Assembly (NCBI GenBank): GCA_018266435.1 | Contig: JAFEAL010000005.1 | Span: 62,001 to 126,000, forward strand | Origin: Bacteroidota bacterium | GTDB lineage: Bacteria; Bacteroidota; Bacteroidia; Cytophagales; Cyclobacteriaceae | Length of the DNA: 64,000 nucleotides | Reading direction: 5' to 3' | Shown: positions 1 through 14,390 of the stretch, piece after piece | How the letters are laid out: each line of letters starts with the position of its first letter | Position numbering within the stretch: position 1 is the stretch's first letter | Notes under the pieces: model-generated | The model's input: the letters and a program-made list of their open reading frames with translations, nothing else | Told to the model about the DNA's origin: nothing | Database searches by the model: none | Program-made: the position numbers and the translations under genes

Positions 1-186
1 GGCTTCGGCATCAACTTGTTTTTTGTATTCAATAGCCTGATCGTGGGGAAGTTTCTGCAAGCGGTAAGCATACAACAGGGTAAGGGGAATATGCAGGTCT
101 TTTGCCAATTCAACAGACCAACGCAAAGCACTTTTTGAAGGCGCAGAAAAATCAATAGCGCATAAAATCCCTTTATCCATTCTCAT
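1..186 (-). CDS. Universal stress protein (UspA family), N-terminal part, cut by the window edge
   Basis: The reverse strand from 186 (or 180) reads MRMDKGILCAIDFS, followed by alternating hydrophobic strand and helix. This is the standard start of a UspA fold, where the first strand ends in a conserved Asp (here CAIDFS) that contacts the nucleotide. About 62 residues are visible and the reading frame runs off base 1. UspA proteins are cytoplasmic ATP- or AMP-binding stress proteins. The gene is divergent from the histidine kinase at 302, with a Fnr-like palindrome at 253-264 between them. A TAGGTTTG element on the minus strand (206-199) fits the Bacteroidota -7 consensus. Two ATGs (186, 180) are possible. 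The family call is firm for a fragment; the length and any second domain cannot be seen. Confidence 0.8.
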   Translation of the reverse strand, partial: MRMDKGILCAIDFSAPSKSALRWSVELAKDLHIPLTLLYAYRLQKLPHDQAIEYKKQVDAEA

Positions 187-252
187 GATTCGTTTGCTCA
201 AACCTATTTCTTTTTTCAGAATACCGTTTCAAACGTTTGTCATGGATAAAAA

Positions 253-264
253 TGATTTTTATCA
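253..264. promoter_or_regulatory. Fnr/FixK-like palindrome TGAT-TTTT-ATCA
   Basis: The sequence TGATTTTTATCA is a perfect TGAT-N4-ATCA inverted repeat, the core of the Fnr/FixK box, lying between the divergent usp and histidine-kinase genes. The outer bases are A and T instead of the classic T and A. It lies about 64 bp upstream of the start point inferred from the minus-strand element TAGGTTTG (206-199) and 38 bp before the kinase ATG at 302. Related boxes occur at 8666, 13757, 13792 and 13815. Binding itself is inferred. Confidence 0.6.
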
Positions 265-301
265 TAATGACAGGCTTATTAATTTTAGGAAATTGACCCC
301 A

Positions 302-1552
302 ATGCAGAAGAACATTTCTACCATATTCAGCACCGCATACCAGGAGATATTTCAAAGTATGTCGGAGGGGATAATTATGGTAGATGACAAAGGAATCATG
401 GCAGCGGCCAACCCGGTGGCCGAGTTATTTTTTGGATACGAAAAAAACGAAATGAACGGCAAGCATATTGAAACATTATTACCTGAGCGCTTTCGCAAGG
501 GGCATGCCGGCATGCGTCTGCATTTTCTTGCTGACCCCAAACCCAGGCGCATGGGCGTGGGCCGCGATTTGTTAGGGCTGCGTAAAGACGGCTCAGAATT
601 TCCCATCGAAATCAGCTTGAGTTATTTTCACATTCAAAACGCTGTGATGGTCATGGCTTTTGTAAGCGACATTTCGCAGCGGAAGAAAACTGAAGACGCC
701 CTCAAACGAAGCGAAGAGCAACTCATTGTTTATGCTGCCGAGTTGGAAAAAAGAGTGGAGATGCGTACTCAGGCATTGAATAAATCGGTGCTTACTCTTG
801 AAAATGAAATCAAAGAACGAAAAAAAGCCGAAGACGAAACCAAACGGTCACTTGAAAAGGAGCGTGAACTCAATGAACTGAAAACAAAATTTGTTTCCAT
901 TGCTTCGCATGAATTTCGCACCCCGTTAAGCACTATTCTCAGCTCGGCTTCACTCATTCAACAATACAAAGAGCGTGGTGAATTAGAAAAAATTGAGAAG
1001 CACATACAACGGGTAAAGTCATCGGTTAATCATCTCACGGCCATTTTAAATGATTTTCTCTCCCTCGGAAAACTGGACGAAGGCAAGGTGGAAGTTCATT
1101 ATGAAACGATTGAGGTGCAGCCCTTTCTTCAGGAGACGATTGAAGAATTATTGGCTACCCTGAAAGAGGGTCAGAAAATCAGTCTCCTGGCCGAGTCAAA
1201 ACTGAAAGAAGTAAAAACAGACCCCCGCATTTTGCGCAACATCTTGTTCAACCTAATCTCTAACGCAAGCAAATACTCAGAACCCGGAAAACCCATTGTT
1301 GTACAACATTTAAATGATCCGACCTTCCTGCATATCAGTGTAATTGATGAAGGAATCGGTATTATAAATGCTGACCAAAAACATTTATTCGACCGGTTTT
1401 ATCGGGCCAGCAACGCAGGCAATGTGCAAGGCACCGGCTTGGGGCTTAACATCGTGAAACGGTACGTTGATTTATTAAATGGTAAAATTTCTTTTATGAG
1501 CGAATACGGAGTAGGTAGTACCTTTACCATTAGCCTGCCATTAACCAAATAA
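302..1552 (+). CDS. PAS-domain sensor histidine kinase with FixL-like PAS motif
   Basis: This cytoplasmic two-component kinase has no membrane segment. From the ATG at 302, a PAS domain covers residues 10-125, a coiled-coil linker 130-190, a HisKA domain has the phospho-acceptor His at about 203 (ASHEFRTPLS), and a HATPase_c domain carries the N box (LFNLISNAS), G1 (DEGIGI) and G2 (GTGLGLNIVKRY) motifs. In the PAS domain a His (KGHAGM, base 503) and an Arg (MGVGRDLLG) sit where FixL has its heme-ligating His and its O2-contacting Arg, before RKDGSEFP. That makes heme sensing possible but not proven, since related non-heme PAS domains share part of the motif. The frame is open back to 185, but 302 is preferred: TAGGAAA lies 9 bases upstream, and the longer start would place the palindrome at 253-264 inside the gene. 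The response regulator at 1641 is probably its partner. Confidence 0.85.
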   Translation: MQKNISTIFSTAYQEIFQSMSEGIIMVDDKGIMAAANPVAELFFGYEKNEMNGKHIETLLPERFRKGHAGMRLHFLADPKPRRMGVGRDLLGLRKDGSEFPIEISLSYFHIQNAVMVMAFVSDISQRKKTEDALKRSEEQLIVYAAELEKRVEMRTQALNKSVLTLENEIKERKKAEDETKRSLEKERELNELKTKFVSIASHEFRTPLSTILSSASLIQQYKERGELEKIEKHIQRVKSSVNHLTAILNDFLSLGKLDEGKVEVHYETIEVQPFLQETIEELLATLKEGQKISLLAESKLKEVKTDPRILRNILFNLISNASKYSEPGKPIVVQHLNDPTFLHISVIDEGIGIINADQKHLFDRFYRASNAGNVQGTGLGLNIVKRYVDLLNGKISFMSEYGVGSTFTISLPLTK

Positions 1553-1640
1553 TTAGCTGTGAAATGTCACCCGGAAAAGTAAGTCAAACACACCTATATT
1601 TATCAATAATGTATTACACGGCTGTAAAAAACAATAACCA

Positions 1641-2702
1641 ATGAAAAAAATTGTTTTGATCGAAGACAACCTTGAGGTAAGAGAAAACACCCAGGAAATT
1701 TTAGAGCTGGCCAATTACCGTGTGGTCACAGCCAAAAACGGACGCGAGGGCGTAGAACTGGCTCAACGCGAAAAACCTGATTTGATTATTTGCGACATCA
1801 TGATGCCTGAATTAGATGGCTATGGAGTTTTGCATATCCTCAGCAAAAACCCTGAAACGGCCGTGATCCCCTTCATCTTTCTCACAGCCAAAACTGAAAA
1901 GACTGACATACGCAAAGGGATGAACCTGGGGGCAGACGATTACATCACCAAACCCTTTGATGATACTGACCTGCTGAACGCTATCGAAACACGGTTGCAA
2001 AAAGCTGGCATAAAACAAAAATTGTACGAAAGCACCTCCGAAGGGCTGGATGAATTTATTCGCGATGCACAAAAAGTACTTAACCTGAAAGAGCTGTGCA
2101 AGGACAAAAAAATAAAGCAATTAAAAAAGAAAGCCGAGTTATTTGCCGAAGGCGATACTCCGCTCAATGTTTATTTAGTTAAATCCGGAAGTGTGAAGGT
2201 ATTCAAATCACACCCTGATGGCAAAGAACTGATCACCTCACTTTATCATGCCAATGATTTTTTTGGATTTGAACCGATACTGGAAGACAGCGTGTACGGA
2301 GAGTCAGCCGTGGCTATGCAAGACTCTGAAATTGTATGCATTCCTAAATATGATTTTATGCTTTTGTTGCAGAGCCACCCGGATGTATCGCAAGGATTTA
2401 TTTCGTTGCTCTGCAAAAAAGTAGCTGAAAAGGAAAAACAATTATTGCACCTGGCGTATAACTCTGTTCGCCAACGCACTGCCGAAGCACTGCTACGGGT
2501 TCAACAACTCAAAGATTCCAATGAAGTTATCCAGATTTCGCGCGATGACTTAGCCAAACTGGTGGGCACTGCTTCAGAGTCAGTCATTCGTGTGCTGTCC
2601 GACTTCAAAGATGAAAAATTGATTGAGATAGACAGTGGCAAAATAAGAATTGTACAACCGACTAAATTAGAAAAAGTGGTGAGATCCAATGTGGCAAGAT
2701 AA
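1641..2702 (+). CDS. Response regulator: receiver domain fused to a Crp/Fnr-type regulator
   Basis: The protein has 353 residues. Residues 3-120 are a CheY-like receiver with the acidic pair E8/D9, phospho-acceptor D52 (CDIMMPELDG), T82 and K104 (ITKPFDD). Residues 150-270 are a cyclic-nucleotide-binding-type beta-roll, and 275-340 a Crp-type winged helix. The recognition helix (TASESVIRVL) keeps Glu313 and Arg317, the residues that read the TGA half-site in Crp and Fnr, but has Ile at the position of the Fnr Ser. There is no N-terminal Fnr-type cysteine cluster, so it is unlikely to sense O2 itself; phosphorylation by the kinase 88 bp upstream is the more likely input. Functionally it would combine FixJ and FixK in one chain. 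It is convergent with the cco accessory genes, with 3 bases between the stops. The domain calls are firm; its target genes are inferred. Confidence 0.88.
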   Translation: MKKIVLIEDNLEVRENTQEILELANYRVVTAKNGREGVELAQREKPDLIICDIMMPELDGYGVLHILSKNPETAVIPFIFLTAKTEKTDIRKGMNLGADDYITKPFDDTDLLNAIETRLQKAGIKQKLYESTSEGLDEFIRDAQKVLNLKELCKDKKIKQLKKKAELFAEGDTPLNVYLVKSGSVKVFKSHPDGKELITSLYHANDFFGFEPILEDSVYGESAVAMQDSEIVCIPKYDFMLLLQSHPDVSQGFISLLCKKVAEKEKQLLHLAYNSVRQRTAEALLRVQQLKDSNEVIQISRDDLAKLVGTASESVIRVLSDFKDEKLIEIDSGKIRIVQPTKLEKVVRSNVAR

Positions 2703-2705
2703 ATT

Positions 2706-3389
2706 TTATCGACACATCACCATATCTACCAGCGATTGGTGAGCCGGGCCATCATGGGTGTGAAAAATAAAAACCCGTGCGACCAATAAAATGCCTGAAA
2801 TAAAAAACATAGCCTTGGTGGCGTAGAGGATATTGAGGTGAAAATAGGTTATAACTTTTGAGAGTATGCCGGCCATGCCAATCATGGCAGGTAAAGTGCC
2901 GAGGCCGAAACACAACATAAACACAAACCCTTCTCGCGGTGAAGGAAGTATTACACAATACGTTAAGGCGAGTAAACTGAGCCCACAAGGAAGAAGCCCA
3001 TTGATGAGGCCAAGAGAAAAAACAGAGCCGTAATTATTTTTTTGAAGTAAAGCAGAAAACCATTTTTTTAACTGGTAAGCGATAGATGCCAGAAATGAAA
3101 AAAAGAGACCGGATCTCATTTTTCCAAAACTAACAACACTCAGTACAACTAAGGCAAGGCCAAGAACCAATGACATCACGTTTTGATAATGAGTCAGAGG
3201 GAGAGCAAACCCCACTGAAGCAACGGTTGCCCCTAAAATACTATAGGTAAGAATTCGGCCGCTGTTGTAAAGCAGCCGGCTGATCATTGTGCGTGGCGAT
3301 AAGTTGGCAACAGCCATGGCCAACGGGCTGCACATGCCTACGCAGTGCAAACTGCCCATAAAACCGATGATCAGGGCCGTGTAAAACAT
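2706..3389 (-). CDS. TauE/SafE-like (DsbD-type) membrane protein of the cbb3 assembly cluster
   Basis: This 227-residue inner-membrane protein has about six hydrophobic segments. It carries the paired motifs GSLHCVGMC (residues 12-20) and NGLLPCGLSL (about 130-139), typical of the COG2836/DsbD_2 family that accompanies ccoGHIS genes in many Bacteroidota and Proteobacteria. The cysteines and His suggest a copper or thiol role in loading the oxidase; the exact activity is not known. Its ATG overlaps the stop of fixH in TGATG, so the two are probably translationally coupled and belong to the ccoNO operon. It is the last gene of that operon. The label 'sulfite exporter' often given to this family is not supported here. 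Confidence 0.75.
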   Translation of the reverse strand: MFYTALIIGFMGSLHCVGMCSPLAMAVANLSPRTMISRLLYNSGRILTYSILGATVASVGFALPLTHYQNVMSLVLGLALVVLSVVSFGKMRSGLFFSFLASIAYQLKKWFSALLQKNNYGSVFSLGLINGLLPCGLSLLALTYCVILPSPREGFVFMLCFGLGTLPAMIGMAGILSKVITYFHLNILYATKAMFFISGILLVARVFIFHTHDGPAHQSLVDMVMCR

Positions 3390-3811
3390 CAGATGGTAAT
3401 TTGATCTTCGAAGTAATAATTTTTTCCGCTCATAGACCAGCTTAATTTTATGCGATACATGCCTTTGGCCATCGTGAGTTTAAATACTTGTTCTTGAATT
3501 GGTTTCAGTTCAAAATGTTGGTCGAGCCGGGCATTGGAGGGGCAAAACAATTTCATCTCTCCTTTTTCAAGAGTTGAGCCACCGGGAATTGTTACTGTTA
3601 TTCCACTTTGCTCGTGGTAAGTAATCATCGGCTTTTGAGTAAGCCCCTTTGTATTTTGCTCACGCTCAATTTGCTGTTGATAAGCCAACTCCTCATCGTA
3701 ATAATCTTTAGAAACCAGGCTGATGTCTTCGCGCATACACAGCATGACCAATGAACCAATGAAAACAACAAAGAGTACAAGCGAAACGAAGATCCATTTT
3801 CCAAAGTTCAT
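3389..3811 (-). CDS. ccoH: FixH/CcoH family cbb3 oxidase assembly protein
   Basis: The protein has 140 residues. One N-terminal membrane anchor (WIFVSLVLFVVFIGSLVML) is followed by the conserved stretch VSKDYYDEELAYQQQI and a periplasmic beta-rich domain. That is the FixH layout, a single-span protein needed to assemble cbb3 oxidase, probably working with the copper ATPase CcoI. It lies 12 bp after ccoG and overlaps the TauE/SafE-like gene. Length and motif fit the family well. The Bacteroidota members are diverged from rhizobial FixH, so the name rests on the KDYYxxE motif and the context. Confidence 0.85.
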   Translation of the reverse strand: MNFGKWIFVSLVLFVVFIGSLVMLCMREDISLVSKDYYDEELAYQQQIEREQNTKGLTQKPMITYHEQSGITVTIPGGSTLEKGEMKLFCPSNARLDQHFELKPIQEQVFKLTMAKGMYRIKLSWSMSGKNYYFEDQITI

Positions 3812-3823
3812 AGATAGAATAGT

Positions 3824-5257
3824 TTATCGTTTAGCATCGGTAGCGTGATGCACCGGGCCAATAAATTTTACTTTCAGGGTTTCAATGATTTTTCCTTCAT
3901 GCAAGGCATTTAATTTGATCACTGTTCTGGCATTGGTGATCGCGTTTTCAGGAATCTTGATGAAGTACACACGTTTCAACAACCCATTTGCCGGAATAAT
4001 GAGTTCTTTTCCGTCCACATTTTTTAACTCAGCCGAAGAAGGTTCTGCTATTTGCAATTCGAGTTTGATTTCTTTCAGTGTTTTGTTGATGAATTCAAAA
4101 TTATACAGATTGGTAACGTATTCACCATCGCGCTGGTAAAGCGTGCCCGGAACTTTCAATGCCGTTACCCGCACATCGTCACGATTGACCAATAAAAAAC
4201 TAAGCAGGCCAATTAAAACCATCAGCACAAATGAGTAACCAATAACTCTGGGTGTAATAATTTTTTGAATACCTTCTTTGATTGAGTGGTAAGAAGCAAA
4301 GCGAATTAACCCCTTGGGTTTTCCGATTTTTACCATTACATCATCGCAGGCATCAATGCAGGCTGTGCAGTTGACACATTCAAGTTGGGTGCCGTTGCGT
4401 ATGTCAATGCCTGTGGGGCAAACGTGCACACACAATTTGCAGTCGATGCAATCTCCTGATTTTTCAATACTTGCGTTTTTTTTAATTTTTCCTCGCGGTT
4501 CACCGCGCAACCAATCGTATGCCACCACGATGGAATCTTTGATCAGCAGTACTCCCTGCAACCGGCCATACGGGCAAACGGCAATGCAAGCTTGCTCGCG
4601 AAACTTGGCGAAGTTGAAATAAAAAATAATAGTGAAAGACAACAGGCCGATAAAACCCGCCAGATGTTCAGCGGGGGGTTCAGTTATGATTTCTCCCACC
4701 TGCTCTATGCCGATTAGGTAGGCCATGGCCGTGTGTGAGATTAAGACTGAGATGGCAATAAACAGAAAATGCTTAAGCGTTTTTTTCCAAATCTTTTCAC
4801 TGTTCAGAGGCTGGGAATTAAGCCTGCGCTGAGCCGGTGCATCGCCTTCAATCCAATACTCGATTTTGCGGAATACCATTTCCATGAAAAGCGTTTGAGG
4901 GCAGGCCCATCCACACCACAAGCGACCGTACACTACGGTGAATAAAATCACAAATACAAAAAAAATGATCAGTGTTATGGCCAGCAGAATAAAATCTTGT
5001 GGCCAAAACGGATGACCAAAAATCACAAACTTGCGCTCGAACACATTGAGCAGCAAGAGTGGTTCGCCTGCGATTTTTATAAACGGTCCTGCAAAGAATA
5101 GCGCCAACAAAAAGATGCTGAAAATAATTCTCCGTACGTGGTACCTTCCCGAAGGCTTTTTAGGATAAACCCAGACTCGTTTTCCTTTCGCATCAACCGT
5201 GGCGATGCTGTCGCGAAATTGCTCGTCATAAATATACAGTTCATCCGATTTTTCCAT
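3824..5257 (-). CDS. ccoG: CcoG (FixG/RdxA): iron-sulfur protein for cbb3 oxidase assembly
   Basis: This 477-residue membrane protein has several transmembrane segments. The first is near residues 44-60, the second near 88-110, and it ends in WCGWACPQTLFMEM. A ferredoxin-like region has two cysteine runs, CIDCKLCVHVCP and CVNCTACIDACD, enough for two [4Fe-4S] clusters. A C-terminal Ig-like periplasmic domain of about 120 residues follows. In the family CcoG is a cupric reductase that supplies Cu(I) for the CuB site of cbb3 oxidase. It sits 3 bp after ccoP and 12 bp before fixH in the same operon. All expected cysteines are present and the length is normal. Confidence 0.95.
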   Translation of the reverse strand: MEKSDELYIYDEQFRDSIATVDAKGKRVWVYPKKPSGRYHVRRIIFSIFLLALFFAGPFIKIAGEPLLLLNVFERKFVIFGHPFWPQDFILLAITLIIFFVFVILFTVVYGRLWCGWACPQTLFMEMVFRKIEYWIEGDAPAQRRLNSQPLNSEKIWKKTLKHFLFIAISVLISHTAMAYLIGIEQVGEIITEPPAEHLAGFIGLLSFTIIFYFNFAKFREQACIAVCPYGRLQGVLLIKDSIVVAYDWLRGEPRGKIKKNASIEKSGDCIDCKLCVHVCPTGIDIRNGTQLECVNCTACIDACDDVMVKIGKPKGLIRFASYHSIKEGIQKIITPRVIGYSFVLMVLIGLLSFLLVNRDDVRVTALKVPGTLYQRDGEYVTNLYNFEFINKTLKEIKLELQIAEPSSAELKNVDGKELIIPANGLLKRVYFIKIPENAITNARTVIKLNALHEGKIIETLKVKFIGPVHHATDAKR

Positions 5258-5260
5258 GCT

Positions 5261-6187
5261 TTACTTTACTGGTGCTGAGGTTTTAGTACTGTCACTTTTT
5301 TCAGGTGCGGGTTTATACAGCTCACCTTGTGGTGCTTTGGGAGCAGCCGGTTTTGAGCCCTGCAGGCTCATAACAAAAAAGGTTACATCACGCACATCAT
5401 TAATACTCATGGCCTTACCCCAGGCAGGCATTCCTTTTTCTACCACACCGTTTTTAATAGTGGAGAAAACATTTTTTATTCCTCCGCCATGAATCCAGTA
5501 TGAGTCAGTGAGGTTTGGGCCAATGGTATTTCCGCCACCATCATTGGCATGGCATGACCCACAGGCATTTCGGGCAAATACTTCTTTACCGCGCTCGATG
5601 ATTTTTTCGTCTTTGGTGTAAACCAGGGTATTTTCATCAATGGCATTTTGAGGTTGTGCAGCCGAAGCTTTTTGCTGAGAAGATTTTGCCTGGGCTACTT
5701 CTGTATCATATTCTTGTTTCATCAGCGGAAGCGAATCGGAAACATGGTAAATGAAGAAATAAACCACTGCCCACACAATGCATCCGTAAAACAGCCATTT
5801 CCACCATGGGGGCAAATGATTATCCAGTTCGCGTATGCCATCGTAATCATGCTCAAGTTCAATGTCTTTTTCCTGTTCAACAGGGACGGAGTCATTTAAT
5901 TTTTGTGAAAATTTCTCCCACCACGAGGGCGAAGGTACATACTCTTTGCCGGTTAGCTTTGCCCGTTGCAGTTCTACACGCTCAATGAAGAGGTTGAGTG
6001 TACGGATGAGAATAACCAGCACAATAATAATCAGGAAGAAGACAATGCCAATGAAGGCAACCGTGGCGTAATAAGGAAGCATCGGGCTGTTAAACGGATC
6101 TTCCCAAAAGGTTTTTTTTGCTGCCTCCTGAGCAAAGCCACTCACGGATGCCAGCAGGAACATAATGACAGAAATAATTTTTTTCAT
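5261..6187 (-). CDS. ccoP: cbb3 oxidase subunit III (CcoP), single-heme form
   Basis: The protein has 308 residues. The N-terminus has a signal-like segment, then a membrane helix at about 40-62, a FixP-type N-terminal domain, a second helix at about 130-150 (WWKWLFYGCIVWAVVYFF) and one cytochrome c domain with the heme site C209-GS-C212-H213 and a distal Met (KGMPAWG). Classic CcoP has two heme c domains; here only one CxxCH is present. I take this as the usual shorter Bacteroidota form, not a truncation, since the gene is intact and in its operon place. It passes electrons to the CcoO part of the fused subunit. A 60-bp gap separates it from ccoQ. Confidence 0.93.
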   Translation of the reverse strand: MKKIISVIMFLLASVSGFAQEAAKKTFWEDPFNSPMLPYYATVAFIGIVFFLIIIVLVILIRTLNLFIERVELQRAKLTGKEYVPSPSWWEKFSQKLNDSVPVEQEKDIELEHDYDGIRELDNHLPPWWKWLFYGCIVWAVVYFFIYHVSDSLPLMKQEYDTEVAQAKSSQQKASAAQPQNAIDENTLVYTKDEKIIERGKEVFARNACGSCHANDGGGNTIGPNLTDSYWIHGGGIKNVFSTIKNGVVEKGMPAWGKAMSINDVRDVTFFVMSLQGSKPAAPKAPQGELYKPAPEKSDSTKTSAPVK

Positions 6188-6452: not shown

Positions 6453-8585
6453 TTAGTTTTGTTCGGCCACTTTTTCTGCTTTGATATCTGTACCCAGCCG
6501 CTGCAGGTAAGCAATCAGCGCTACAATTTCTGCATCGCTGGGTACTTCAATGCCATCGGCTTTCAGGCTGCGGGCAATATCATCGGCTTGCTTTTGCAAG
6601 TCATCATTGGCTGTGGCTTCATATCCTTCTGCATAGGGCACACCAATCTTTCTTAAGGCCGTGATCTTTCCGGTTGTCAGATCCTTATCAATCGTGTGTT
6701 CGTGCAGCCACGGATAGGCCGGCATGATCGAGCCGTTTGAAACAGCATCAGGTGCCAGCATGTGGTTGTAGTGCCAGGAGTTAGAGTATTTTCCACCTAC
6801 ACGCGCCAGGTCAGGGCCGGTGCGTTTGGATCCCCACAAAAACGGGTGGTCGTAAACAAACTCTCCGGCTTTAGAATATTCGCCATATCGTTCTGTTTCT
6901 GAACGGAACGGACGCACCATTTGTGTGTGGCAGTTTACACACCCTTCGCGAATGTAAATATCTCGGCCATGCAACTCCAGTGGAGTATAGGGCTTTACAC
7001 TACTGATGGTTGGTATGTTAGATTTAATCAAAAACGTAGGAACCATTTCGATGATGCCCCCGATTAATATTGCCACTAAAGAAAGCACGGTAAAGAGAAT
7101 GGGTTTGTGTTCCAGCACCCGGTGGTGCCAGCCCGCGTTTCTGCTGGCCACATATTCTTTTACCAGCGGTGCTGCTTCGGCTTCTTCGTTGGCTACAAAT
7201 TTTCCAGCGTATGCGGTTTTAATCAGGTTGTAAGTCATGATGATGGTGCCGATTAAATACAAGGTGCCGCCCGTGGCTCGCAACATGTGCAATGGCAAAA
7301 TAGACGTGGTGGTTTCCAGGAAATTTTTATAAACTAAAAATCCTTCGGGGTTGAATTCTTTCCACATCAGACTTTGGGTCAGCCCCGAAACATACATGGG
7401 CAGCGTGTAGAAGATGATGCCCAGTGTGCCCACCCAAAAGTGAACGTTGGCCAGTTGCTTAGAATATAGTGTGGTATTCCACATGCGTGGAATGGCCCAA
7501 TAGAGTACGGCAAAAATGAGGAAGCCATTCCAGCCCAATGCGCCCAAGTGTACGTGAGCCACAATCCAATCGGTGAAGTGGGCAATGGCATTCACATTTT
7601 TTAGCGAGAGCAACGGTCCTTCTAATGTGGCCATACCATACGCAGTGATGGCTACAACCATGAATTTTAAAACCGGATCTTCACGCACACGATCCCACGC
7701 CCCACGCAAGGTCATCAACCCGTTAAGCATACCGCCCCATGAAGGGGCAATGAGCATAACAGAAAATACCGTGCCCAGCGACTGTGCCCAGTCAGGTAGG
7801 GAAGTATACAATAAATGGTGAGGGCCTGCCCAGATGTAAATAAATATCAACGACCAAAAGTGGATGATAGAAAGTTTGTATGAATAAACCGGGCGGTTGG
7901 CAGCCTTGGGCAGGAAGTAATACATCATGCCCAAAAAAGGAGTGGTAAGAAAAAATGCTACGGCATTGTGCCCATACCACCACTGCACCAGCGCATCTTG
8001 TACCCCGGCATACCATGAATAGCTTTTAAAAAGTGTAACCGGCATTTCAAACGAATTGACAATGTGCAGCACAGCCACTGTAACGAATGTGGCAATGTAA
8101 AACCAGATGGCCACATACATGTGCCGTTCTCTGCGCCTGATAATGGTACCAATCATGTTAATACCAAAAGCCACCCACACTATAGTTATGGCCACGTCAA
8201 TGGGCCACTCTAACTCGGCATATTCTTTTGAGGTAGTAAACCCCAGCGGCAACGTAATGGCTGCAGCAAGAATGATCAATTGCCAGCCCCAAAAGTGAAA
8301 CCAACTAAGGGTATCGCTGTACATCCGGGTTTTTAGCAACCGCTGCATGGAGTAATAGATGGCCCCAAACATGGCATTGCCCACAAAGGCAAAAATGATG
8401 GCATTGGTGTGCAAGGGCCGGATGCGACCAAAAGAAGTATAGGGCAAATCAAAATTAAACAGCGGGTAGAACAATTGAATGGCAGCCGTGAGGCCCACCA
8501 GCATGCCCACCAGCCCAAAGACAACTGTAGCAATAAAAAACGCCTTAACAATTTTGTTGTCGTAGTAGAACTTTTGTAACTCCAT
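6453..8585 (-). CDS. ccoNO: Fused cbb3 cytochrome c oxidase subunits I and II (CcoN-CcoO)
   Basis: The protein has 710 residues. Residues 1-470 are the CcoN catalytic subunit with about twelve helices. Expected metal ligands are visible: H59 (RPLHTN) for low-spin heme, H206 (WWYGHNAVAF) and H256/H257 (AGPHHLLY) for CuB, and H344/H346 (IVAHVHLGALGWNG) for the hemes. Residues 490-710 are CcoO: an anchor helix at about 497-519, heme c site C549-VN-C552-H553, and an axial Met in SIMPAYPWL. The enzyme is the high-affinity proton-pumping terminal oxidase used at low O2. CcoN and CcoO are separate in Proteobacteria; the fusion is typical of Bacteroidota. It is the first gene of a six-gene operon. 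An Fnr-like box lies 81 bp upstream of the start. Confidence 0.97.
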   Translation of the reverse strand: MELQKFYYDNKIVKAFFIATVVFGLVGMLVGLTAAIQLFYPLFNFDLPYTSFGRIRPLHTNAIIFAFVGNAMFGAIYYSMQRLLKTRMYSDTLSWFHFWGWQLIILAAAITLPLGFTTSKEYAELEWPIDVAITIVWVAFGINMIGTIIRRRERHMYVAIWFYIATFVTVAVLHIVNSFEMPVTLFKSYSWYAGVQDALVQWWYGHNAVAFFLTTPFLGMMYYFLPKAANRPVYSYKLSIIHFWSLIFIYIWAGPHHLLYTSLPDWAQSLGTVFSVMLIAPSWGGMLNGLMTLRGAWDRVREDPVLKFMVVAITAYGMATLEGPLLSLKNVNAIAHFTDWIVAHVHLGALGWNGFLIFAVLYWAIPRMWNTTLYSKQLANVHFWVGTLGIIFYTLPMYVSGLTQSLMWKEFNPEGFLVYKNFLETTTSILPLHMLRATGGTLYLIGTIIMTYNLIKTAYAGKFVANEEAEAAPLVKEYVASRNAGWHHRVLEHKPILFTVLSLVAILIGGIIEMVPTFLIKSNIPTISSVKPYTPLELHGRDIYIREGCVNCHTQMVRPFRSETERYGEYSKAGEFVYDHPFLWGSKRTGPDLARVGGKYSNSWHYNHMLAPDAVSNGSIMPAYPWLHEHTIDKDLTTGKITALRKIGVPYAEGYEATANDDLQKQADDIARSLKADGIEVPSDAEIVALIAYLQRLGTDIKAEKVAEQN

Positions 8586-8665
8586 GTTTAGAGGGGGTTT
8601 GAATTTTTGCGTTAAAAATATAATTGCCCGATAGGGTATTGACCGACTTATGCTTTAAAAAAATA

Positions 8666-8677
8666 TGATTTTTGTCA
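8666..8677. promoter_or_regulatory. Fnr/FixK-like palindrome TGAT-TTTT-GTCA
   Basis: TGATTTTTGTCA lies in the 181-bp divergent space between ccoNO (minus, start 8585) and the DUF1003 gene (plus, start 8767). It has the same A-TGAT-TTTT left half as the box at 253 and the TGAT-N4-GTCA form common for FixK/Dnr sites. For the plus-strand gene a near-consensus -7 element (CACCTTTG, 8699-8706) puts the box roughly 40 bp upstream of a start point, the activating position. No clear -7 element was found for ccoNO. Confidence 0.55.
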
Positions 8678-8766
8678 GGGACTTTTATTCCATATATGCA
8701 CCTTTGATAAAAAATTAAATACACACGTTTGCCAATTTCGATTTATTTTTTTTAAAATTTTAAAAG

Positions 8767-10197: not shown

Positions 10198-10345
10198 CTT
10201 CTTTTTTGGGTTCATCAAACAACATCCGTACCGAAGGAGTGTAAACATCTTCATACTGCCCGCTCTTGATGCTCCAAAAAAAAGCAATCAAAAAAACCAC
10301 GGCAATCGTGAGGCTGATCAGGATGAGGCCGGCAATGATGATCAT
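10175..10345 (-). CDS. ccoS: CcoS, small cbb3 oxidase assembly protein
   Basis: This 56-residue protein falls below usual length cutoffs. It reads MIIIAGLILISLTIA at the N-terminus, a single helix, then FFWSIKSGQYEDVYTPSVRM. The W-x3-GQYED motif after the helix is the CcoS/FixS signature. CcoS is needed for cofactor insertion into cbb3 oxidase. Its ATG overlaps the ccoI stop in ATGA and its 3' end overlaps the globin gene by 23 bases, which fits tight translational coupling. The tail (LFDEPKKEDDESTAS) is acidic, as usual. Confidence 0.92.
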   Translation of the reverse strand: MIIIAGLILISLTIAVVFLIAFFWSIKSGQYEDVYTPSVRMLFDEPKKEDDESTAS

Positions 10346-12759
10346 GTCAGTTTTCTTTTCGCAATAAAGTTAACAGCAACAAACGAAAATACCACAACGC
10401 TAATGCTGCTCAGGGGCATTAAGATGGCGGCCACTAACGGGGTAAGGTGCCCGCTCACGGCAAACGAAAGTGCAACGGCATTGTAAACGAAAGAAATAAC
10501 AAAAGCAGTCTTTAAAATAACTAATGACGATTGGGCCAATTCAATAAACTTATCCAGCAGGCCAAGTTGGTTCCCCTCTAAAATTCCATCACAGGCCGGG
10601 GTAAATACCCCAGCTTTATCAGTAATGGCTATACCCACATCGCTTTGTTTCAACGCCCCCGAATCATTCAGCCCATCGCCCACCATCAGTACTGTTTTTC
10701 CGTTTCGTTGCAAATTATAAATGTACTCCAGTTTGTCGTGTGGACTTTGATTAAAAAAGAAAAGCGTAGAGGAACTAAACAGCGATCTTAATTCAGTCGT
10801 TTGGTTTTCCTGATCGCCCGAGAGCAAAGCATCAATCTTATGGCCCAGGGCAGAGATCATGCGCCTGATATTTTTGCGCAAGGAGGTGGGAATCAAAAAA
10901 TAACCCAGGGTTTCTCCGTTTACCGAAACGTAAACATGTGAACCGCCCGTGTCTTTTATCGGGAGGGTGCCAACAAATTCGGCCGATCCGATTTTATAAA
11001 GTTGTTGATTCACCCTTCCTTCAATTCCCTTGCCTGGAATTTCTTTGAAGCCTGAAATTTTTTCAGTCGAAACTTTTCCGCGCCACTGAGCAATGATCAT
11101 ACTTAATGGATGCGATGAGGCACCAGTAAGCGAATGTACAGCTGCCCATTCCGCATCGTTCAGTTTCCCGATAAATTCTGCTTTGGGTTTTTCACCGTGC
11201 GTCAATGTACCTGTTTTATCCAGCACCACGGTATCTACCGCTGCCAGTCGTTCAATGACATCTACGTTTTTCAGATACAACTTATGTTTTCCGAAAACAC
11301 GCAGCATATTTCCAAAAGTGAAAGGTGCCGACAGTGCCAAGGCGCATGGGCAGGCCACCATCAGTACCGAAACAAGTACCAACCACATTTGGTTGGGCCG
11401 GGTAAGCTGCCAATATATGCCGGTGATAATGGCCAGGGCCAGCACAATCCAGGTAAACCTGCGCGCGGCACGGTCAATTATTTTTTTGTAACGGCTTTCG
11501 TTCACTTTTCCAAAAGCCGGGTTGTTCCACAAACTGGTGAGGTGGCTTTGCGATACCGACTTTTCTACCACCAACTGCACGGGTTGGCCAATCAGTCGCC
11601 CGCCTGCATAGATCAGGTCACCCAGACTGGCTTTTACCGGTCGTGATTCGCCCGTAACAAAACTGTAATCAATGAAGGCATGGTCGTCAATCAGTTTTCC
11701 ATCGGCCGGCACTACTTCCATATTTCTTAATTGAATGCGATCGCCCACTTGCAACTGATGGATGACGGCTGGCTGCCAGAGGTTGTTGTGCAGGCGCTGA
11801 ACGGCCAGTGGAAAATAGGATTTATAATCACGATCGAAGGCGAGAGTTTCATACGTTTTTTCCTGAAACCAACGACCAATCAGAAGAAAGAAAACCAAAC
11901 CGGTAAATGAATCGAGATAGCCAGGGTCGCTGTGGGTGATGATGGCATAAGCACTGTGTACAAACAAGGCCACCAGGCCGGCTGCAATGGGCACATCTAT
12001 ATTAATTTGTTTTTGTTTAAAGCTTTTTAAAGCAGCCTTTAAATAATCAGAACTGCTATAAAAAAAAACCGGAACGGACAACAAAAGATTAAGCCATGAA
12101 AACGCACGGTTCAGCAGGGCATCGTGCTGGCTGATTCCTAAGTATTCCGGAAAACTAAACAGCATCACATTGCCAAAACAAAATCCGGCTACGGTTAACT
12201 TGATCAGAAGCGAGCGGTTGTCAGGCTTTTCGTTTTTAGCTGAATCGCTGAGTGTAATGTGGGGCGCATAGCCAAGCGAACTGAGTAATGAAGCGATGTG
12301 GCTTAGTTTGATTCGGGCCGGATGGTAGTCAAGAGTCACTGATTTTTTAGCAAAATGAGTTTCTGATCTGAGTATTCCGGGCTCTATCTTTCGAAGGTTT
12401 TCCAGTAACCAAATGCACGACACGCAATGGATGGCCGGAATGTAAAATGTGATCCGTGCAAAGTCTTCTGAATCAAATGACAACAACTTCTTTTGGATGG
12501 TCTTTTCATTTAAATACAAAAAACTGTCATCGTTTGGCTGGCGGAGCGAAATGCCCGGATGATCACCTAACTGATAGTATTGACAAAGGTTGTTGGTGTT
12601 GAGTATTTCGTAAACGGTCTTGCAGCCGTAGCAACAAAATTGTTTTTCATCAAGGTAAAGTGACTCTTCGCATTTTTGCCCGCAGTGATAGCAGAGCACA
12701 GGCGCTTCGGTTTCTTTAAGTAAGGAGTCTTGTGCAATTTCATGCATAAGTCGGCTCAT
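10342..12759 (-). CDS. ccoI: CcoI (FixI) copper-transporting P-type ATPase
   Basis: The protein has 805 residues. An N-terminal cysteine-rich metal-binding domain (C23, C26, C30, C42, C43, C46; PF12156 type) is followed by an HMA-like domain with C112-VS-C115. The P1B-ATPase core then shows TGESRPVK, the membrane metal site ACPCALALSAP, the phosphorylation motif DKTGTLTHG, the SSHPLS motif and GDGLNDSGALKQSD. The double N-terminal domain and CPC motif mark the CcoI/FixI branch, which exports Cu(I) to the periplasmic side for building the CuB site of cbb3 oxidase and possibly other cuproenzymes such as NosZ. It overlaps the upstream usp gene by 20 bases and ccoS by 4. The length is typical. 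Confidence 0.94.
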   Translation of the reverse strand: MSRLMHEIAQDSLLKETEAPVLCYHCGQKCEESLYLDEKQFCCYGCKTVYEILNTNNLCQYYQLGDHPGISLRQPNDDSFLYLNEKTIQKKLLSFDSEDFARITFYIPAIHCVSCIWLLENLRKIEPGILRSETHFAKKSVTLDYHPARIKLSHIASLLSSLGYAPHITLSDSAKNEKPDNRSLLIKLTVAGFCFGNVMLFSFPEYLGISQHDALLNRAFSWLNLLLSVPVFFYSSSDYLKAALKSFKQKQINIDVPIAAGLVALFVHSAYAIITHSDPGYLDSFTGLVFFLLIGRWFQEKTYETLAFDRDYKSYFPLAVQRLHNNLWQPAVIHQLQVGDRIQLRNMEVVPADGKLIDDHAFIDYSFVTGESRPVKASLGDLIYAGGRLIGQPVQLVVEKSVSQSHLTSLWNNPAFGKVNESRYKKIIDRAARRFTWIVLALAIITGIYWQLTRPNQMWLVLVSVLMVACPCALALSAPFTFGNMLRVFGKHKLYLKNVDVIERLAAVDTVVLDKTGTLTHGEKPKAEFIGKLNDAEWAAVHSLTGASSHPLSMIIAQWRGKVSTEKISGFKEIPGKGIEGRVNQQLYKIGSAEFVGTLPIKDTGGSHVYVSVNGETLGYFLIPTSLRKNIRRMISALGHKIDALLSGDQENQTTELRSLFSSSTLFFFNQSPHDKLEYIYNLQRNGKTVLMVGDGLNDSGALKQSDVGIAITDKAGVFTPACDGILEGNQLGLLDKFIELAQSSLVILKTAFVISFVYNAVALSFAVSGHLTPLVAAILMPLSSISVVVFSFVAVNFIAKRKLT

Positions 12760-13591
12760 TTTTTAAAGTGTATGTCCAAACAAGACCATCTGAGTGATTG
12801 ACCACATCTTCGGCAATGCTGGTGTTGAGCAAATGAGCAATGCCGGTGCGGCCGTGAGTTCCGATTGCAATTAAATCTCCGCTAACGAGTTTTGCAAACT
12901 CAAGAATTCCTTCCTGCTTTGAAGTGTGGTTGAATATATTAAGGGTGAAGTTGCGGAACATATACCGTTTGGCAAAATCATCCAGTCGTTTTCGGGTTAC
13001 GGTGTCGGCCACAAAATTGGCGGGGGTGTTGACCCAAACAATGTGCAGGGTAGCATCAAAGAATTTTTGCAGCTCTTTTACTTTTGCGGTCAGGTCTTCC
13101 TGGTGTTCGAGGTTAAGTTCGTTGGGAAACACAATATTTTTTACCGGTTTCGAACCGGCTTGTTTCACAATCATTACCGGTACAGGAGATTGACGAACAA
13201 TGCGCTCAGCGTTTGAGCCGATTAAATATTCTTTCATACCGCTTGCGCCATGAGAACCCATCACCACCAAATCAATGGATTGGTCTTGAATGCACTGGCT
13301 AATTACAACGGGCACAGCCCCATATTTTATTTCATACGTTACGGCAGTGCCGTGCTCTTTGCTTTTTTTTGTAAACTCTTTAAATTTTTGAATCGCATTG
13401 GTTTCTAACTCCTTCATGAGTTCGGCCTCAAAACTCAGGGTAGGCATTAATAAGGTATCATTCATTACCGGAGGTTCGATAACGTGCAAAAAATGAATGG
13501 TTGCATAAGACTTTTCGGCCAATGCTTGTGCTTGGGCATATGCGTGAATGGCTGGCTCTGAAAAATCGCAAGGGACTAATATTTTTTTCAT
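12740..13591 (-). CDS. Tandem-domain universal stress protein
   Basis: The start is set at 13591 (MKKILVPCDFSEPA), giving 283 residues; the frame is open upstream but without Usp sequence. There are two Usp folds, residues 1-145 and 150-283. The first has the nucleotide-binding motif GSHGASGMKEYLIGSNAE; the second has GTHGRTGIAHLLNTSIAE. Tandem Usps bind ATP and respond to energy or oxygen stress in several bacteria. It leads the usp-ccoI-ccoS-globin operon and overlaps ccoI by 20 bases. It faces the nos operon across a 282-bp region with three Fnr-like boxes. Together with the partial usp at the window start this makes two usp genes next to Fnr-like boxes. Confidence 0.9.
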   Translation of the reverse strand: MKKILVPCDFSEPAIHAYAQAQALAEKSYATIHFLHVIEPPVMNDTLLMPTLSFEAELMKELETNAIQKFKEFTKKSKEHGTAVTYEIKYGAVPVVISQCIQDQSIDLVVMGSHGASGMKEYLIGSNAERIVRQSPVPVMIVKQAGSKPVKNIVFPNELNLEHQEDLTAKVKELQKFFDATLHIVWVNTPANFVADTVTRKRLDDFAKRYMFRNFTLNIFNHTSKQEGILEFAKLVSGDLIAIGTHGRTGIAHLLNTSIAEDVVNHSDGLVWTYTLKNEPTYA

Positions 13592-13756
13592 GTGTTTGAG
13601 ATTTATTTTTTCGAAATCATTCAGAATTAGTAAGGCTACATCAAACAAGGTTGATCAGGCTTGCCAAGGGGCCGCCCTCATCACAACCCGATCGGGCACT
13701 CAACAAAATTATCAGTTAGGCTTAGCTATGGAGTTGACACCCATCAATCATACTAA

Positions 13757-13768
13757 TGATATAAGTCA
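13757..13768. promoter_or_regulatory. Fnr/FixK-like palindrome 1 of the usp-nos divergent promoter (TGAT-ATAA-GTCA)
   Basis: TGATATAAGTCA has the TGAT-N4-GTCA pattern. Its centre lies about 63 bp upstream of a start point inferred for the usp-ccoI-ccoS-globin operon from a minus-strand TAATTTTG element (13711-13704). It is the first of three boxes within 70 bp. Confidence 0.55.
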
Positions 13769-13791
13769 GAAAGCCGCATTTTAGCTGTTTC

Positions 13792-13803
13792 TGATATGAA
13801 TCA
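13792..13803. promoter_or_regulatory. Fnr/FixK-like palindrome 2 of the usp-nos divergent promoter (TGAT-ATGA-ATCA)
   Basis: TGATATGAATCA is a perfect TGAT-N4-ATCA palindrome, centred 35 bp from box 1 and 23 bp from box 3. It lies between the two divergent operons. Confidence 0.6.
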
Positions 13804-13814
13804 TGCAGGTAAAC

Positions 13815-13826
13815 TGACGTAAATCA
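13815..13826. promoter_or_regulatory. Fnr/FixK-like palindrome 3 of the usp-nos divergent promoter (TGAC-GTAA-ATCA)
   Basis: TGACGTAAATCA is a TGAC-N4-ATCA site. With the -7 element TACGTTTG at 13850-13857, the start point should fall near 13862, which puts this box at about -41.5, the classical position for Crp/Fnr activation. The distance depends on an inferred start point. Confidence 0.6.
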
Positions 13827-13849
13827 TTATTTGCCGTTCATTGGCTATC

Positions 13850-13857
13850 TACGTTTG
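13850..13857 (+). promoter_or_regulatory. Bacteroidota -7 element TACGTTTG of the nos operon
   Basis: TACGTTTG matches the TAnnTTTG consensus and lies 16 bases before the cytochrome c ATG at 13874. No good TTG element is seen about 19-21 bases upstream; instead the Fnr-like box 3 occupies that area, as expected for an activator-dependent promoter. Confidence 0.5.
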
Positions 13858-13873: not shown

Positions 13874-14362
13874 ATGTCCATGAAAAAGACCTCACTTATA
13901 GTAGTAGCAGCAGCAACGATCATATTTGCCTGCTCTCCCGGAAAACCTCAAGTAGCCCAGGAAGATACCTCCATCCCTCAAGCGGAAACTGTGCCTGCAC
14001 CGGCAGCCAATCAACAAGACCCACGCAAAGGGTTGGGCGAGGTGAAGCACGTTACACTCAAAACCCCTCTTGAGCAAGATCGCGTAAGACGCGGAGAAGA
14101 AATTTATGAGATGAAATGTGGAGCCTGCCACAAACTGACAGACGAACGGTTAGTGGGTCCCGGATGGAAAGGTGTAACCCAACGCAGACACCCCGAGTGG
14201 ATCATGAATATGGTTACTAATGTGGATGTAATGCTCGATCAGGATGCAGAAGCTCAAAAGCTGCTCGAACTTTGCCTGACACGCATGCCTAACCAAAACG
14301 TATCCATAGGCGATGCCCGCGATGTGCTGGAATTCATGCGTAGCAACGATGGACAGAAATAA
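13874..14362 (+). CDS. Lipoprotein cytochrome c of the nos operon
   Basis: The protein has 162 residues. A lipoprotein signal ends in the lipobox IFAC (Cys20), followed by a Pro/Ala/Gln-rich linker and a single cytochrome c domain with the heme site KCGACHKL and a likely axial Met in LTRMPNQNV. It is probably anchored in a membrane facing the periplasm. It is the first gene of the nos operon, 28 bp before nosZ, so it is the likely electron donor to N2O reductase or its relay from the quinol pool. Monoheme cytochromes are commonly found at this place in clade II nos clusters. The ATG at 13880 is an alternative start. Confidence 0.88.
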   Translation: MSMKKTSLIVVAAATIIFACSPGKPQVAQEDTSIPQAETVPAPAANQQDPRKGLGEVKHVTLKTPLEQDRVRRGEEIYEMKCGACHKLTDERLVGPGWKGVTQRRHPEWIMNMVTNVDVMLDQDAEAQKLLELCLTRMPNQNVSIGDARDVLEFMRSNDGQK

Positions 14363-14390
14363 AAACAAATCCTACCTATCAACAATAATT

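Follow-up and report, generated by a model that had tools for sequence, protein, structure and literature searches.

One of the closest described counterparts of the locus reported here is the FixL-FixJ-FixK system of rhizobia, in which FixJ and FixK act in series. FixK and FNR recognize the site TTGAT-N4-ATCAA, and activators of class II bind at position -41.5. The mycobacterial DosRS system governs a similar gene set through DosR, which is of the LuxR type, unlike the Crp-type protein described below. In Burkholderia, FixJ carries a LuxR-type helix-turn-helix (HTH), according to the available part of PMC5234846. The present locus lies in a stretch of 64,000 nucleotides (the window; contig JAFEAL010000005.1, positions 62,001 to 126,000) of a Bacteroidota bacterium of the class Bacteroidia. 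Here a PAS kinase gene is followed by a gene for a fusion of a receiver with a Crp-type DNA-binding protein, close to cco, nos and usp genes. The two genes probably make up a two-component switch that governs respiration at low oxygen and survival under stress, with the fusion activating promoters that carry a palindromic box.

The kinase and the receiver-Crp fusion

The two genes are:

302..1552, + strand: PAS-HisKA-HATPase_c kinase (Pfam); acceptor His203 at 908-910, H68 at 503-505, R88 at 563-565
1641..2702, + strand: receiver-cNMP-HTH_Crp fusion, 353 aa (Pfam); D52 at 1794-1796; recognition helix ESVIR at residues 313-317

The pairing of a PAS kinase with a receiver-Crp fusion had been proposed in a preliminary description of the DNA and has strong Pfam support. 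The fusion was matched by Response_reg (4.5e-29), cNMP_binding (3.8e-19), HTH_Crp_2 (5.2e-15) and Crp (2.9e-7). D9, D52, K104, E313 and R317 were invariant in an alignment of 54 fusions; D52, E313 and R317 had been singled out in the preliminary description. With its acidic pocket, phospho-accepting Asp and Lys, the protein can be assigned to the two-component response regulators; its cNMP_binding and HTH_Crp domains and the Glu and Arg of the helix likewise place it, as judged from sequence, in the Crp/Fnr family. All 50 fold matches listed from the PDB were Crp/Fnr-type chains, and the PADLOC match of the fusion was restricted to the receiver. The predicted structure showed good domains in an uncertain arrangement (predicted template modelling score, pTM, 0.42), and for that reason no interdomain mechanism is claimed.

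The preliminary description had also seen in the fusion a FixJ merged with a FixK. A GerE/LuxR Pfam match was sought in the fusion and none was found, its HTH being of the Crp type; no PDB chain named FixJ was present among the 60 matches listed of 337; and the closest relatives found for the Crp half, other fusions aside, were stand-alone Crps, most of which adjoin cco genes. The merger was therefore rejected. The cco-linked stand-alone Crps share 28-38% identity with the Crp half, and in a tree the fusions and the stand-alone Crps fell on opposite sides of a branch, one distant row excepted. No CxxC, and thus no FNR-type cysteine cluster, was found in residues 111-200 of 60 fusions. C153 was considered as a relic cysteine from a stand-alone ancestor and ruled out, as its column is not conserved.

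The kinase was matched by PAS_9/PAS, HisKA (7.7e-14) and HATPase_c (4.2e-25). Its longest open reading frame (ORF) is 185-1552; a start at 302 is more likely, because the box at 252-265 precedes it and because the resulting 416 aa match 38 of the 53 adjacent kinases called (394-455 aa; the others have 518-1105 aa). No 19-residue window has a mean hydropathy above 1.29, and no membrane segment is therefore expected. Compared with PDB sequences, the PAS domain matched the multi-sensor kinase 10jx first, then FixL (2.5e-10) and DosP, the latter two being the best named matches. H68 and R88 align with FixL PAS positions that we take to be those of the heme-proximal His and the distal-side Arg. Among 132 detected partner PAS domains, the FixL-type His is present in 116 and His together with Arg in 71. 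None of the 21 other kinase matches in the same genome aligns with the PAS region of this kinase. Heme binding by the PAS domain is likely on these grounds, and oxygen sensing through it is plausible.

A search of 395 phylum genomes (E <= 1e-40) returned 61 full-length fusions in 56 genomes, all in the class of the window; the 7 matches outside the class covered the receiver only, one extending to residue 190. Frames of 366-388 aa with a receiver-only match at 52-58% identity were observed in five genomes outside the class (G341, G279, G051, G287 and G283). Identity was 76-100% among the 120 matches listed of 7,999 scored homologues. In a species-genome scan, the 80 best of 523 relatives all bore the label Bacteroidota or uncultured bacterium, save one on a 3-kb contig labelled Alphaproteobacteria. 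Carriers of the fusion include the culturable species Ohtaekwangia koreensis and Chryseolinea serpens.

Neighbouring genes were tabulated for 60 loci (up to 20 kb) from 55 other genomes and for the window's own 40-kb stretch, with gene starts from a simple longest-ORF caller. At L013 no fusion gene was called, and it is absent from the box and helix tables; L020, L029 and L059, with Thr or Asn in the helix, were excluded from the class tables. In 54/61 loci the gene directly upstream, on the same strand, encodes a kinase like that of the window (all but L011, L015, L018, L023, L024, L027 and L029), and clustering of neighbours without prior choice gave 64 Usp genes in 30 loci; CcoN, P or G was found within ~10 kb of the fusion in only 21/61 loci, and NosZ in 3/61, at 11.7 kb from the fusion in the window. 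CcoP was present in 20 loci, CcoNO, CcoG, FixH-like and P-ATPase genes in 18 each, HemN (representative passing TIGR00538) and Hsp20 in 14 each, a beta-CASP metallo-hydrolase in 10, and 2-hydroxyacid-dehydrogenase-like, PPDK-like, OsmC and BON genes in fewer. The cbb3 genes are thus the commonest respiratory neighbours, while many loci have usp, hsp20 or osmC genes instead. As 20 kb is ~0.5% of a 4-Mb genome, well under one such proximity to cco or nos genes would be expected by chance, an estimate made with no formal control.

The box, its promoter spacing and the recognition helix

Every 5-mer inverted repeat with a gap of 2-8 was counted in the intergenic DNA of the 61 loci. ATGAT-N4-ATCAT occurred at 18 intergenic sites in 14 loci and at 4 coding sites, 12.6-fold over coding DNA. 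The AT-only repeats TTTTT/AAAAA and ATTTT/AAAAT likewise reached 14 loci, yet with 2.2- and 3.3-fold enrichment, so that the box ties for most loci and is by far the most enriched of those tied. ATGAC-N4-GTCAT (10.5-fold, 9 loci) and AATGA-N6-TCATT, the same box one base out of register (21-fold, 10 loci), were also recovered, and the refined box is [A/C]TGAY-N4-RTCA[T/G].

An exact TAnnTTTG, the -7 promoter element of Bacteroidota, stands 29 bp from the box centre in 22 of 205 box-gene pairs and 51-52 bp from it in 14, with no other distance exceeding 1. With up to one mismatch the numbers rise to 89 pairs at 29 bp, 29 at 51 bp and 7 at 52 bp, other distances giving 0-5; of 170 boxes, 89 have such an element at 28-30 bp and 36 at 50-52 bp. 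In 46/57 loci one or more boxes show this spacing (gene direction not required). In F. psychrophilum the -7 element occupies -12 to -5, according to the available part of PMC9723704, and with the observed spacings this puts the box centre at -41.5 or ~-63.5.

Boxes were found upstream of CcoNO (10/17), CcoI/P-ATPase (7/17), Usp (22/60), Hsp20 (7/13), kinase (20/55), OsmC (5/5), PPDK-like (4/4) and HemN (3/13) genes, compared with 4/59 fusions and 87/593 other genes. None was upstream of 69 operon-internal CcoP/G/H/DsbD genes, 10 beta-CASP genes or 7 LdhA-like genes. A family of ~136 aa with no Pfam or NCBIfam match (e.g. L052:11812-12222, + strand, and 7 other loci) has a box upstream in 8/8 cases; by this token it is a predicted, as yet unnamed, member of the regulon.

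The fusions carry Ile or Ser at a helix position that we take to be that of FNR S212. NTGAY-N4-RTCAN has 166 intergenic sites in 180 kb at Ile-type loci (63 in 669 kb of coding DNA) and 64 in 71 kb at Ser-type loci (21 in 213 kb of coding DNA). The first bases of the two half-sites were AC 69, AA 31, CC 15, AG 14 and AT 14 of the 166, as against AG 34, AA 16, GG 5 and AC 5 of the 64. Boxes 29 bp from a -7 element repeat this pattern, with AC 50, AA 29, AT 8, AG 7 and CC 3 of 101 for Ile, and AG 20, AA 6 and AC 1 of 30 for Ser. Ser in place of Ile therefore goes with G in place of C at the variable base (AC+CC versus AG+GG over intergenic sites, Fisher p 6e-16, the sites not being independent). 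The T/T pair of FixK/FNR sites was found near Ile-type fusions in 5/166 cases; the window has one T/T site, at 13734.

The 3.48-Mb genome to which the window belongs contains the exact box-29-bp-TAnnTTTG arrangement in 3 places, 2 of them in the window locus, and the 51-52-bp arrangement in 3, all in this locus (nos, usp-ccoI and usp). Five of the six exact matches thus fall in the locus, at three promoters. A match at C20:374528 lies inside a 279-aa ORF and was treated as chance. With one mismatch, the 29-bp pattern occurs in 21 places versus 2 for the reversed control, several of the 21 being in coding frames. Exact ATGAY boxes without the promoter element are too many to interpret (28 places versus 11 in the control). 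At L284:3-1464 (- strand), one of the 21 places, a perfect box precedes a cytochrome c gene and a COX1-family gene, with an ABC transporter divergent. This COX1-family gene matches only NorB in the PDB (2.8e-10), and its best NCBIfam model is ccoN with 42 bits (cut-off 583). Another one-mismatch place precedes an OsmC-like gene.

Within positions 1-20300 of the window all 6 NTGAY-N4-RTCAN sites are in the 2,969 bp of intergenic DNA and none in 17,331 bp of coding DNA. The remainder of the window has 0 in 9,228 bp intergenic and 4 in 34,472 bp coding, and control loci, 21 in number and from the same genome, gave 2 in 12,759 bp and 2 in 63,511 bp, respectively. The features around the two genes are:

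1..180, - strand: 5' part of a single-domain usp gene, extending upstream of the window and divergent from the kinase (contiguous DNA of the same genome; Pfam Usp 5.4e-10)
199..206, - strand: TAGGTTTG, usp -7 element; box 252 is centred 52 bp away
252..265, no strand: perfect box ATGAT-TTTT-ATCAT, spaced for usp
2706..3389, - strand: assembly protein of the DsbD_2 family, CcoH2/SafE-like (Pfam)
3389..3811, - strand: FixH/CcoH (Pfam FixH 3.6e-16)
3824..5257, - strand: ccoG (TIGR02745, 413 bits, above cut-off)
5261..6187, - strand: ccoP (FixP_N 2.2e-20; TIGR00782 113 bits, below cut-off)
6453..8585, - strand: ccoN-ccoO fusion, cbb3 oxidase subunits I/II (NF011053, 1284 bits)
8665..8678, no strand: box ATGAT-TTTT-GTCAG between ccoNO and DUF1003
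10342..12759, - strand: ccoI-like heavy-metal P-type ATPase (named ccoI from its context; scores fall short of copper-model cut-offs)
12740..13591, - strand: two-domain Usp protein (two Usp stretches), encoded immediately before ccoI and codirectional with it
13704..13711, - strand: TAATTTTG, usp-ccoI -7 element; distances 29 bp (box 13734) and 51 bp (box 13756)
13734..13747, no strand: box TTGAC-ACCC-ATCAA, a T/T variant
13756..13769, no strand: box ATGAT-ATAA-GTCAG
13791..13804, no strand: box CTGAT-ATGA-ATCAT
13814..13827, no strand: box CTGAC-GTAA-ATCAT
13850..13857, + strand: TACGTTTG, nos -7 element; distances 29 bp (box 13814) and 52 bp (box 13791)
13874..16373, + strand: cytochrome c and Sec-dependent nosZ (NosZ TIGR04246, 915 bits)
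After nosZ, up to 20252: nosL-like, nosD-like and ABC transporter genes (names by eye)

The ccoG, ccoNO, ccoP, FixH, DsbD_2, P-type ATPase, Usp and NosZ neighbours have Pfam or NCBIfam matches, and the five boxes reported at 252-265, 8665-8678, 13756-13769, 13791-13804 and 13814-13827 all exist; that at 13734 is new. On the kinase side of box 252 there is merely a one-mismatch -7 element at 21 bp and none well placed, which weakens this box as a kinase promoter site; its spacing suits the divergent usp. Box 8665 has only one-mismatch elements, at 49/51 bp on the cco side and 27/52 bp on the DUF1003 side. Between 13734 and 13827, four boxes in 94 bp form tandem pairs 22-23 bp apart that serve two divergent promoters. 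The promoter-proximal box of the usp-ccoI unit, 13734, is T/T and FNR-like, so a second Crp could share it.

The proposed switch and competing explanations

In the proposed switch, the FixL-like PAS domain would sense a signal, most likely oxygen or NO via heme. As the conserved residues and the adjacency of the genes suggest, the kinase would autophosphorylate at His203 and phosphorylate D52 of the fusion, whose receiver would stand where ordinary Crp/Fnr activators have their N-terminal input. The phosphorylated fusion would dimerize through the Crp-type helix and bind [A/C]TGAY-N4-RTCA[T/G], a fit of box and helix that is supported comparatively. From -41.5 (class II) and ~-63.5, the spacings observed, it would activate TAnnTTTG promoters. 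Predicted targets in its own genome are usp, usp-ccoI and nos; the cbb3 oxidase operon is most likely another, and the cytochrome c/NorB-like pair probably a further one. One protein would thereby do the job of both FixJ and FixK. On the strength of the box, the promoter spacing, the helix-base pairing and the five of six own-genome matches in the locus, the fusion is most likely a direct activator of the usp, cco and nos genes. The link to cbb3, nos and usp genes drawn in the preliminary description is upheld by the same spacing, pairing and clustering, by which the boxes resemble genuine activator sites, with the fusion as their most likely reader.

A generic response regulator might instead lie beside respiration genes by coincidence and exert no specific control. 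The presence of ccoNO in 51/56 genomes with and 33/42 without the fusion (98 class genomes, p 0.09, not significant) is a weak co-occurrence of the kind this would predict. The box, helix covariation and own-genome clustering contradict it, and the box-to-promoter spacing in particular makes coincidence very improbable. A more serious contender assigns the boxes to another protein, a stand-alone Crp/Fnr, with the fusion merely nearby or modulating that Crp. NTGAY-N4-RTCAN was sought in 450 bp upstream and the first 60 bp of ccoN in 48/51 fusion-plus and 26/33 fusion-minus class genomes with ccoNO and in 7 outgroup genomes, stand-alone Crps being searched at E <= 1e-8 or 1e-15. A stand-alone Crp lies within 10 kb of ccoN in 22/26 of the fusion-less class genomes, and the ccoN site is present in all 22; the 16 linked Crps whose helix was read all have E[ST]xIR. 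However, Ile-type fusions without a linked Crp go with a ccoN site in 22/23 genomes (17/23 AA, AC or CC), and with a spaced -7 element in 19/23, whereas shuffling gave a mean of 0.8 and a maximum of 5/23. Sites were found in 7/9 genomes with an Ile-type fusion and a linked Crp, in 6/7 with a Ser-type fusion alone (mostly A/G), in 3/3 with another or unread fusion helix, in 2/4 with neither protein and in 0/7 outgroup genomes. An ATGAY box, with up to one mismatch allowed, is absent at ccoN in the closest fusion-bearing relatives, G049 and G186. In the six genomes of one genus (g14), which have both a Ser-type fusion and a linked Crp, the ccoN sites are A/A in 6/6, but A/G predominates among the sites close to the fusion (24/36), fitting the fusion's own helix. 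Crp-type proteins that pass the Pfam cut-off number four in the genome of the window, the fusion included; two have unlike helices and one has EVISR. Besides the fusion no E[ST]xIR Crp was seen there, a sub-threshold match on C11 not being among those read. Ownership of the boxes by a stand-alone Crp is thus improbable. In the linked Crps the class has a candidate for a further oxygen regulator, a second one beside the fusion: CxxC is present N-terminally in 18/18 related stand-alone Crps, those at L237-L252 mostly have two further cysteines, and these may possibly be Fe-S or redox ligands.

Several observations weigh against direct activation by the fusion in response to oxygen. The ccoN boxes of the fusion-less genomes, presumably read by stand-alone Crps with the same helix, mean that the box alone cannot single out the fusion, and it was rejected as a fusion-only signature. 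The ccoN sites of genomes with only an Ile-type fusion are mixed (of 29: AC 9, AA 6, CC 4, CG 3, AG 2 and five others). The Ser-type fusions form one side of one branch (support 89/96), and since Ile/Ser changed once on the tree, the helix-base covariation is a single evolutionary contrast. No box was found in 7/57 loci, and the cco promoter of the window has no exact -7 element. The further Crp at C20:667370 (in L296) has an FNR-like helix, EVISR. The FixL-type His is also present in 18/27 non-partner PAS domains scored with the same profile, and such frequency means that it is no proof of heme; the weak ccoNO co-occurrence given above belongs here as well. At L296:793-2215 (- strand), the EVISR Crp adjoins an OsmC-like gene with an upstream box and a one-mismatch -7 element.

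Alternatively, the system might respond to a signal different from oxygen, such as NO, redox state or a metabolite, and the low-oxygen genes would then be just one part of what it controls. The nos and NorB-like genes among the predicted targets, the usp, hsp20 and osmC genes that stand in place of cbb3 at many loci, and the FixL-aligned Arg in only 39/55 rows point in this direction; the PAS domain is closest to the heme-PAS sensors FixL and DosP among named PDB chains, and cbb3 genes are the commonest respiratory neighbours. We regard such a signal as unlikely, though clearly less so than the two explanations above. As to how the oxygen-responsive switch arose, we lean slightly toward a history in which an FNR-type cco regulator acquired a receiver. 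This would have given a class-wide oxygen-response system of the Bacteroidota that differs in architecture from FixJ, DosR and NmpR and that came to control cbb3, nos and nor together with a Usp-Hsp20 stress regulon of the DosR/lxa kind, the site then diverging with one recognition-helix residue.

Comparison with known systems

Strong induction of cbb3 upon oxygen limitation is described for a flavobacterium in the available part of PMC9723704, whose main text contains neither 'crp' nor 'fnr'. A literature search, with subscription papers mostly outside its scope, found no published receiver-Crp regulator of respiration in Bacteroidota. The present locus bears on how these bacteria turn on the cbb3 oxidase and N2O reduction at low oxygen, and the box, promoter position and pairing of helix residue with base make the regulon predictable genome by genome.

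As in FixL-FixJ-FixK of rhizobia and FixLJ of Burkholderia, a PAS kinase lies by a receiver protein, Crp-type DNA binding is involved, and cbb3 (fixNOQP/fixGHIS-like) and denitrification genes are the outputs. Unlike there, receiver and Crp-type DNA binding are in one protein with no FixJ-type LuxR HTH; the system resembles FixL-FixJ-FixK in two proteins and is not FixJ and FixK merged. With FNR, Anr and FixK the fusion shares the cNMP fold, HTH_Crp_2, the helix Glu and Arg, a 5-4-5 box and position -41.5. It differs in having a receiver for the N-terminal cysteine motif, in the residue at the presumed FNR-S212 position, which is Ile or, in one clade, Ser, and in a box beginning [A/C]TGAY where FixK/FNR sites have TTGAT. 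The cco-linked stand-alone Crps (e.g. L250) have the same E[ST]xIR helix as the fusion, with an N-terminal CxxC and no receiver.

The gene content recalls the Burkholderia lxa locus, with its Usp, heat-shock, BON and metallo-beta-lactamase genes (PMC6127331, available part), and Myxococcus NmpRSTU, which has Usp, HemN and cbb3 under hypoxia (PMC11841059, available part); NmpR is an NtrC-like regulator, unlike the Crp-type fusion. If the proposed switch is correct, it is a further case of the Usp-Hsp20-HemN-cbb3 gene set placed under an unrelated oxygen-response regulator.

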